Positions 50,851 to 59,483 of a stretch of 64,000 bases of DNA are shown piece by piece. The stretch's first letter is position 1. Every line of letters begins with the position of its first letter. Position numbers and translations under genes: made by a program. The notes beneath the pieces were generated by a model. That model was not told the DNA's origin, did not search any database, and was given only the letters and a program-made list of their open reading frames with translations. The stretch comes from Lysobacteraceae bacterium (GTDB lineage Bacteria; Pseudomonadota; Gammaproteobacteria; Xanthomonadales; BQJN01), in assembly GCA_021604725.1 (NCBI GenBank), contig BQJN01000001.1:37184-101183 (forward strand). The letters run 5' to 3'.

Positions 50851-51125
50851 TATGTGGCTCGCTTCCCTTCTTTTTTCGAAGAAATCAGAACCGTCTGGAA
50901 CGGTTCGAACAGCTTTAGCTGGCCCGAAGGGTGAGGGGCATGGACAGCCCCGAATAAAAACCGGCTGCACGGGCTATTCGAACGATTCGAAAGGCTTCTT
51001 TCCTCCGGAAAACCGCCGTCCGAATCTTTTCGGCCCTCACATTTTAGGTGATGCGATGCCTCTGGATTTGCGAGCTTGGGCTCGCTCACCAACCGGCATC
51101 GCGCGGGAGCTTCCGCACAAGCGTC

Positions 51126-56964: not shown

Positions 56965-58323
56965 GTGGAGTCAAAGCATTTACTCGGGCTGGGTCTAGGT
57001 CTGGCATTGTTATGTGGCGGAGCGCAGGCAGTGGAGTGGGGTTCATGGGAACAGCGTTTACTGCAGCCGGCCGAACGCACAGGTCTTGATTTACTGCTGG
57101 TCGACAAACAGCAAGGGATGAAAAAGGCGGGTGACTTCAGAGATGTTGTCATAGAGACCGGCCACCCCTACGCGGTGGGTAGCCCAAGTGAGAAGAGCGT
57201 TGAGATGGTGTGGTCACGCACTATTCATGAAAAGAACGCCAGTTTCATCATGCCCCACTTCCTGAGTATGGACTTGGCGGAAGGAGATTTTCTGGTATTG
57301 AGATCGCCCGACAACAGTCGCGAGCGCATCTACACCGGTTATGGCAAGAGTGATCGAGGACGCCCGGGCGCTGGTGGGTTTTGGGGTATTCACATCTCCG
57401 GCGACACTGCCATTTTGGAACTATATTCAAGCGGAAAACCTAGCCGCCATGGGGTACTAGTTGACCGGATCAGTGTCGGCTTTCCGGACTTCGATACCGG
57501 CGGTGGGAGTACACGTTCGCTTTGTACAGTTGACGACAGCGAGAATTCGACATGTTATGCCGATACCCATCCATTTCAGTACCAGAGAGCACAAACGGTT
57601 GCACGACTGCTGATCACCAAGCCGACCGGGACGTTTTTCTGCACCGGTTGGCTGGTTGGTAGCGAGGGCCACTTCATTACTAACCAACACTGCATCGAAA
57701 ACGGCACCCAAGCGATGGATACGACTTTTGAGTTTGCTGCCGAAGGTGCCACGTGCGCCACCAACTGCAGGACCGGAAATGGCTGCCCCGGCGTGGTTGA
57801 AGCGGATAACTCCACGCTAATCAAGGTAAGTAGCCCGTTGGATTATGCGCTGGTGGCTGTAGACACTAGTGGCCTAGGTGGCACCGATTTGCCAGCGACT
57901 TATGGGTTTTTGACTTTGCGTCCAGGGGGTGCTGAACTGCTGGAGGAAATCTATATTCCTCAACACCCAGCGGGCTGGGGTAAGCACATTGCCTTAACTT
58001 CCAGTTACCCTTCGGATGTCAACCTTGGTGGGATGGGGTATGTGCAGTCGGTGACAGAGTTCGCCTGCACCGGTGGAACCAGTGACGTAGGTTATTTTCT
58101 CGACACTCAAGGGGGTTCGTCCGGGTCGCCGGTACTTGCGTCGGCCGACCATGCGGTTGTCGCCTTACACCATTGTCGCGGCAGTGCTTTCTGTGCATCG
58201 GGAAACCCTGCGACTGATGACCCAAATCGTGGTGTGCCGATCGAAGACGTGATCGCTCATATCGATGCCGATATGCCAGCAGATGCACTTTGGGTCGACG
58301 AGTACTTTGTAGATAGTTTCTAG
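56965..58323 (+). CDS. Secreted trypsin-like (S1) serine endopeptidase
   Basis: Signal peptide; His in FITNQHCIEN, Asp in SSPLDYALVAV, Ser in TQGGSSGSPVLA. Confidence 0.85.
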   Translation: MESKHLLGLGLGLALLCGGAQAVEWGSWEQRLLQPAERTGLDLLLVDKQQGMKKAGDFRDVVIETGHPYAVGSPSEKSVEMVWSRTIHEKNASFIMPHFLSMDLAEGDFLVLRSPDNSRERIYTGYGKSDRGRPGAGGFWGIHISGDTAILELYSSGKPSRHGVLVDRISVGFPDFDTGGGSTRSLCTVDDSENSTCYADTHPFQYQRAQTVARLLITKPTGTFFCTGWLVGSEGHFITNQHCIENGTQAMDTTFEFAAEGATCATNCRTGNGCPGVVEADNSTLIKVSSPLDYALVAVDTSGLGGTDLPATYGFLTLRPGGAELLEEIYIPQHPAGWGKHIALTSSYPSDVNLGGMGYVQSVTEFACTGGTSDVGYFLDTQGGSSGSPVLASADHAVVALHHCRGSAFCASGNPATDDPNRGVPIEDVIAHIDADMPADALWVDEYFVDSF

Positions 58324-58460: not shown

Positions 58461-58536
58461 GGGCCGTTAGCTCAGTTGGTAGAGCAGTGGACTTTTAATC
58501 CATTGGTCGTAGGTTCGAGCCCTACACGGCCCACCA
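58461..58536 (+). tRNA. tRNA-Lys (anticodon TTT), CCA encoded
   Basis: GGGCCGTTAGCTCAGTTGGTAGAGCAGTGGACTTTTAATCCATTGGTCGTAGGTTCGAGCCCTACACGGCCCACCA folds as a canonical cloverleaf. Confidence 0.97.
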
Positions 58537-58830
58537 TTTCCCTCCTCCCGTTCGAAGCGACAATCCCTTCAAGTATCATCTTGCCTGGGATCAAGCGGCT
58601 CGAACCGTCTTCTGTCGCAAACCGCGTAGCCGGAATGGTTTTCGCTTCGCGAAATGAATGTAGGCGGAGCCTCCAACCCTCGAGCCCTACACGGCCCACC
58701 ATTTCTCCTCCCGTTCGAAGCGACAATCCCTTCAAGTATCATCTTGCCTGGGATCAAGCGGCTCGAACCGTCCTCTTTCACAAACCGCGAAGCCGAAATG
58801 GTTTTCGCTTCGCGAAATGAATGTAGGGTG
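58515..58830 (+). repeat. Tandem direct repeat, unit ~165 bp, each unit starting with the 3' end of tRNA-Lys
   Basis: TCGAGCCCTACACGGCCCACCATTTC at 58515 and 58680, followed in both by CTCCCGTTCGAAGCGACAATCCCTTCAAGTATCATCTTGCCTGGGATCAAGCGGCTCGAACCGTC...GGTTTTCGCTTCGCGAAATGAATGTAGG. Confidence 0.93.
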
Positions 58831-58930
58831 AGGCGGATTGAGAACGAGTGGCTTGCCGCAAAGTATTTCTGCGCAGGCATACTGAGCTGCCATCCCTGGC
58901 GAACCCAAAGCGCTCCGTGAGGAGATTCCG

Positions 58931-59320
58931 GCCTTGCCATCCTTGGCAAGGCGTTCAGCGGGATCGAATGCCATTCAAGGCATTCGATCGAGATCCGCTT
59001 CACCCCGCCGAACGACTCGACAGGACGTCGAGGCTGGGGGTACGTATGACGCACGATGGCAACAACCATCCCTGGGCCGCACCCTTCGGTAGGCGAGGAT
59101 GAAGCCAACAACCATCCCTGGACCGCACCCAGCCGGCACATCCATGTGCCGTCGTTCGCCACCTGCGGCGTGGCGTTCAAGGCACCCGTCATTGCGGCTT
59201 CGTAGGAGAGGATTGGAGTTGCCTTCCCTGGCGAGACGATTCAGCTTCGAGTGAACCCCCAGCCCAACCATCCATGGTTGGTCGTTCGCCACCTGCGGCG
59301 TGCCATTCAAGGCACCCCGC
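58931..59320. repeat. Array of hairpins with conserved loops and different arms, plus a repeated GTCGTTCGCCACCTGCGGCGT segment
   Basis: GCCTTGCCA-TCCT-TGGCAAGGC 58931-58952; GATCGAATGCC-ATTCAA-GGCATTCGATC 58962-58989; CGGCACA-TCCA-TGTGCCG 59134-59151; CCAACCA-TCCA-TGGTTGG 59264-59281; GTGCC-ATTCAA-GGCAC 59300-59315; GTCGTTCGCCACCTGCGGCGT at 59151 and 59281. Confidence 0.85.
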
Positions 59321-59483
59321 GTCTACGGTGGCTCACCCATCCCTGGCGCAGCATGGGGAATCTCATCAAAAACTATGCATAAGGCGCGGGAATCGCTCGG
59401 TCTACCGACAATCTGCTGCTGCGAAGCGAATCTGCATGCTATATTTTGTCAGTGACTGAGTTTTCGGTAGCCGTGCGGGCGGC

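Follow-up and report, generated by a model that had tools for sequence, protein, structure and literature searches.

The window analysed here, a stretch of 64,000 nt in full length, carries on its plus strand a tRNA-Lys(UUU) gene with an encoded CCA (58461-58536), on which ARAGORN and Rfam agree. The final 22 nt of this tRNA, which reach from the T-loop through the CCA (58515-58536), form the original tail, and the base right after the CCA opens a first body of 143 nt (58537-58679). It is followed on the same strand by a copy of the tail matching the tRNA 3' end at 22 of 22 positions (58680-58701) and by a second body (58702-58827), which is about 95% identical to the first and finishes without a third tail. 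Immediately 5' of the tail copy lies the junction stretch CGGAGCCTCCAACCC (58665-58679, plus strand), which is unlike the end of body 2. Including its flank, the repeated sequence amounts to 26 nt: TCGAGCCCTACACGGCCCACCATTTC is present at 58515-58540 and at 58680-58705 with 26/26 identity and a start-to-start spacing of 165 bp, which bears out the recurrence of the tRNA tail reported in the initial annotation. Further downstream, 58542-58669 and 58705-58832 align over 128 nt with 95% identity; the spacing is 163 here, not 165, because unit 1 carries two extra nucleotides, and the two bodies differ by a few substitutions and one 2-nt indel. The two near-identical units of about 165 bp described at first stand as far as the bodies are concerned, whereas the second unit is incomplete: homology ends at GTAGG (58827) and is succeeded by unrelated sequence. 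TRF delimits the array at 58515-58827 (period 163, 1.9 copies) and reports it as the sole tandem array within the 64 kb. An exact copy of 26 nt together with 128 nt at 95% identity cannot be due to chance.

The opening 80 nt of the bodies are C-rich and G-poor (28 C and 15 G in body 1, 27 and 14 in body 2). The motif GTAGG is common to both bodies (58660-58664 and 58823-58827) and also occurs 5' of the tRNA's T-loop. A search for intrinsic terminators between 58300 and 59500 found none, folding of the units as RNA was no better than that of shuffled sequence (z -0.96 and -1.63), and the body matched no Rfam family. A dispersed element of the own genome was considered for the body and rejected, as no second copy exists elsewhere in the 4.68-Mb assembly. 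In 60 relatives of the same order no conserved trailer corresponding to the body was observed, and tRNA-Lys trailers elsewhere look unrelated; one short match in genome G004 (L013), an apparent extension into the trailer, turned out on inspection not to be a conserved trailer.

The tRNA-Lys gene had been placed beside queC. The two are not direct neighbors, since a gene for a 452-aa trypsin-like protease (56965-58323) separates them. A tRNA-Lys was found in 70 of 80 queE neighborhoods of other genomes, most often some 1.4-2 kb downstream of where queE begins; the distance of 2.9 kb observed here exceeds that in the 70 relatives having the tRNA.

Repeats of this kind are known from Escherichia coli as tRNA-linked repeats (TLRs; Egan and Landy, 1978; Rudd, 1999) and include rtT/RttR of tyrT-tyrV (PMC8144298). 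The E. coli set comprises 22 units at ten loci, each unit closing with 18-19 bp that are identical to the 3' terminus of the tRNA or rRNA before it. Although known since 1978, TLRs have no agreed function, and the role in the stringent response claimed for the tyrT unit was withdrawn (PMC8144298). Three E. coli TLRs that follow 5S rRNA give rise to processed transcripts, a 3' end of which was mapped 3 nt beyond the tail copy, and for the rRNA-linked units RNase E was suggested to recognise the copied tail (PMC8144298). RrA, RrB and RrF are E. coli TLRs situated in rRNA operons between the terminators; they bind Hfq and CsrA, the latter in vitro, whereas the TLRs of tRNA operons are predicted not to bind CsrA (PMC8144298). 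In the open-access literature searched, no report of TLRs outside the enterobacteria was found.

The Lys array shares the defining features of these repeats. It lies directly 3' of a tRNA gene on the same strand, its unit ends like the upstream RNA over 22 of 22 nt, where at least 18-19 bp are expected, and it is one of three such loci in its genome, in keeping with several loci per genome of one to five units each. The E. coli units measure about 150-180 bp, likewise follow their gene directly and end in its 3' tail; the Ser-linked units of the own genome, described below, additionally share the TAATCC junction with E. coli tyrT. Differences are the host, which belongs to another order of Gammaproteobacteria, the tail of 22 instead of 18-19 nt, and the last element, which is a body without tail in the Lys array and a tail in E. 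coli. RrA, RrB and RrF resemble the Lys array in class, size and position behind a stable RNA gene; they are located behind 5S rRNA, however, and their binding of Hfq and CsrA is experimental (PMC8144298), while the Lys array is known from its sequence. The comparison with rtT in the initial annotation holds for the layout, and the E. coli tyrT/tyrV repeats (175/178 bp), used as a positive control, are picked up by our tail-copy scan, whereas the body is no RtT homolog. With the RtT model RF00391 no match in the genome exceeded the cut-off of 45 bits and none lay near the array; the best score was 15.8 bits on another contig. Among the control genomes 1 of 14 was above the cut-off, and E. coli was among those matching. 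In our classification the Lys array is a TLR, which adds to a known and unexplained class a member outside the enterobacteria in which TLRs were described.

The occurrence of such repeats in relatives had been set beforehand as a test of the locus, and further TLRs are indeed present both in the own genome and in related ones. Among the 35 tRNA and tmRNA genes of the own genome that were checked for tail copies, three represent TLR loci: tRNA-Lys, tRNA-Ser(GCU) with an exact copy of 19 nt at +166, and tRNA-Ser(UGA) with a degenerate copy (2 mismatches) at +270. Across five genomes of the order, a copy of the gene's own tail was detected up to 700 bp downstream of 15 of 183 tRNA and tmRNA genes (own genome 3/35, G081 5/37, G091 6/27, G017 0/40, G053 1/44), a lower bound because some genes sit near contig ends; upstream copies were found for none of the 183. 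Unit lengths are chiefly 155-191 bp, with exceptions of 117-138, 223-273 and 67 bp (L112), and in most of 27 cases the junction lies in the T-loop or adjoins it. Many TLRs have a hairpin directly adjoining the tail, with a combined p of about 3e-11 over 27 junctions, not all of which are independent; the Lys array has no such hairpin (p = 0.82). The layout and the exact tail copy recur within this genome and among its relatives, and on these sequence comparisons TLRs are a real, recurring class and not a one-off accident.

In genome G081 a single body is common to tRNA-Lys, tRNA-Met, tRNA-Val and tmRNA (L162, L191, L210, L221). At each of these genes it closes with that gene's own tail, and it has a hairpin that starts directly after the CCA; we read it as a TLR family dispersed over several loci, with a tail specific to each.

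Arrays behind tRNA-Lys itself are rare. A pattern search for two tRNA-Lys tails 108-168 bp apart, run on 399 genomes of the order, gave matches in 8, and six of these proved to be real arrays on inspection (own genome, G081, G136, G091, G397 and G260), the matches L152 and L156 being due to chance. The array in G091 has at least three tail copies and an N gap in the assembly; tRNA-Lys(CUU) is the gene concerned in G397 and G260 (tRNA and two more tails, spacing exactly 135 bp). A Lysobacterales MAG reached via queE (L130) carries a tRNA-Lys with three more tails at exactly 117 bp, and a search at the class level added one array (G499, L226), the other matches being mostly whole tandem tRNA-Lys genes. 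The bodies are mostly unrelated among the arrays of G081, G136, G091, G260, G397, L130 and L226. Two loci have a different architecture: in Arenimonas fontis (L112) 35 nt of the tRNA-Lys 3' end are repeated 67 bp downstream of the gene, ahead of a terminator-like hairpin, and G185 (L169) contains the remnant of a second tRNA-Lys, whose T-loop is split by a GGA-hairpin module (see below) and which then continues with the acceptor end and CCA.

We consider it probable that the Lys locus is a TLR array in which tail and trailer were duplicated, which is transcribed by read-through and which is cut at the tail copy. The tRNA-Lys 3' end from T-loop to CCA would have been duplicated in tandem together with its trailer, with a breakpoint in the T-loop, and similar duplications would have arisen repeatedly behind stable RNA genes, both in this order and in E. 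coli. Transcription of the array would start at the tRNA-Lys promoter, read-through being most likely because no intrinsic terminator was found within it. A first cut after the CCA of the tRNA would yield the mature tRNA. The tail copy would re-create the 3'-processing site, so that a cut at the second CCA would free an RNA of about 165 nt ending in CCA; this is the simplest view because the copied tail was suggested as an RNase E target in the E. coli rRNA case. Body 2 would serve as the 3' trailer, with termination perhaps by Rho, which would suit the C-rich and G-poor beginning of the bodies. Transcription, cleavage and release of an RNA are what we infer for this array; the evidence supports no specific regulatory role of the Lys unit. 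3'ETS-leuZ of E. coli is a tRNA trailer acting as a sponge that is freed by processing. The likeness proposed for the Lys array is that of a processed tRNA trailer, 3'ETS-leuZ itself having no tail repeat. The idea that the sequence upstream of a tail pairs with the copied acceptor strand to give a mini-tRNA was suggested by visual inspection of L130 and G091 and was rejected, since the best-stem scores did not exceed those of shuffled sequences in 10 of 10 cases; the tail-pairing test of the Lys array was not significant.

A neutral tandem duplication, by slippage or unequal crossing-over at a short T-loop-like homology, whose idle copy will decay, is a somewhat unlikely explanation and the likeliest of the alternatives. 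It would fit an array of two units with the second incomplete, a body that is weakly folded and not conserved in relatives, the rarity of tRNA-Lys arrays (6 of 399 genomes including the own) and the presence of GTAGG in both bodies and before the T-loop of the tRNA, a possible site of crossover. Yet 15 of 183 stable RNA genes have this layout downstream and none has it upstream; this, the narrow unit length and the preferred T-loop junction point to a recurrent mechanism or to selection and not to ordinary random duplication, although a TLR layout, even if recurrent, could be neutral in effect. The conservation of the tail at the Lys locus is uninformative on selection: between sequences that differ by about 5%, a run of 22 identical bases would arise by chance about one third of the time or more and is nothing unusual. 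More telling in this respect are G081 and G091, where the tails are identical and the bodies have diverged (84% alignment; background level).

The copied tail with its boundary in the T-loop is what stays constant among the TLRs compared; this directs attention to processing or to a common duplication mechanism and away from the body. With independent sets in another order that have unrelated bodies, the same tail rule and a similar length, the question of TLR function becomes testable by comparison.

A second line of evidence concerns the bodies behind other stable RNAs. The Ser bodies of the own genome, the Gln and Pro bodies of G091 and intergenic repeats of Pseudomonas form one structured family with three helices, from which, together with related repeats, we built the model R1. 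In the last helix 6 of 7 pairs show changes on both sides, and the structure as a whole has a covariation score of 0.387 compared with 0.092 in shuffles, a control that overstates significance since closely related copies are mixed. GGA, the core of CsrA sites, is located in the loops of this family, and the own genome encodes CsrA. On the same strand, R1 modules also occur downstream of tmRNA (three, L242) and tRNA-Thr (three, L048) of the own genome, where no tail copy was found. As the module is encountered away from tRNAs and in reverse orientation, too, it seems to behave also as a mosaic intergenic repeat. The sole R1 match in the window (50887-50960, plus strand, E 8.7e-8) falls between two genes that we take to be tolQ-like and tolR-like from recognising their sequences. 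In Pseudomonas (L082, L083, L106) tandem repeats of about 75 bp belonging to this family are intergenic, upstream of queE and antisense; those of L106 gave no Rfam match over cut-off. Against the record of the E. coli tyrT operon R1 gave four weak matches on the tRNA strand (12.3-14.7 bits, E 0.1-0.5), and the RtT model a sub-threshold match to the G185 module (26.5 bits, E 0.19). A remote homology of the E. coli TLRs to the GGA-hairpin module is possible on these grounds.

A wider scheme may be drawn from this, in which TLRs are widespread trailer RNAs of Gammaproteobacteria whose GGA modules, in this order, couple stable RNA transcription to CsrA; they would have spread between tRNA genes, each time ending in the local tail, with the Lys array as a divergent member and the E. 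coli TLRs maybe as remote homologs. We regard this scheme as unlikely in its entirety. The modules in question sit behind tRNA-Ser, tRNA-Thr, tRNA-Gln, tRNA-Pro and tmRNA, which provides a concrete and assayable hypothesis of CsrA titration coupled to stable RNA synthesis. For the Lys trailer RNA itself, titration of CsrA as proposed for RrA, RrB and RrF is highly improbable. The CsrA gene, the covarying family with GGA loops behind both tRNA-Ser genes, the modules on the tRNA strand behind tmRNA and tRNA-Thr, and the binding of the three E. coli RNAs in vitro would speak for it (PMC8144298). The Lys array, however, contains neither an R1 match, for which reason a CsrA-type module was rejected there, nor a convincing GGA hairpin, and the E. 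coli TLRs of tRNA operons are predicted non-binders (PMC8144298).

The initial annotation offered as an alternative that site-specific integration left the repeat as a scar. Such an origin, with attL and attR of a lost island or mini-element at the 3' end of tRNA-Lys, is very unlikely. The tRNA-Lys genes are common targets of integration, the repeated segment fits the usual att core from T-loop to CCA, and L154 (tRNA, body, tail, native trailer) and L112 with its partial tRNA copy would look no different after an insertion, but the repeat keeps 95% identity for about 130 bp beyond the tRNA, which an att duplication would not leave, and a single attP is insufficient for the G081 body with its different local tails at four genes. 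Neither an integrase nor a remnant of a phage or island was detected at the site, as judged from ten predicted proteins at 55.5-64 kb without integrase domain, from viral contigs without a copy of the 26-mer, and from a search for phage relatives of the array without meaningful match.

Next to the array, eight CANGGA(T/A)G sites are clustered on the minus strand at 58890-59350, out of 18 on this strand in the whole window. Several of them lie within perfect hairpins, three of which have NGGA tetraloops on stems of 7-9 bp. The cluster has no Rfam match and resembles either intergenic palindromes assembled as a mosaic or a sponge of the CsrB/RsmZ type.
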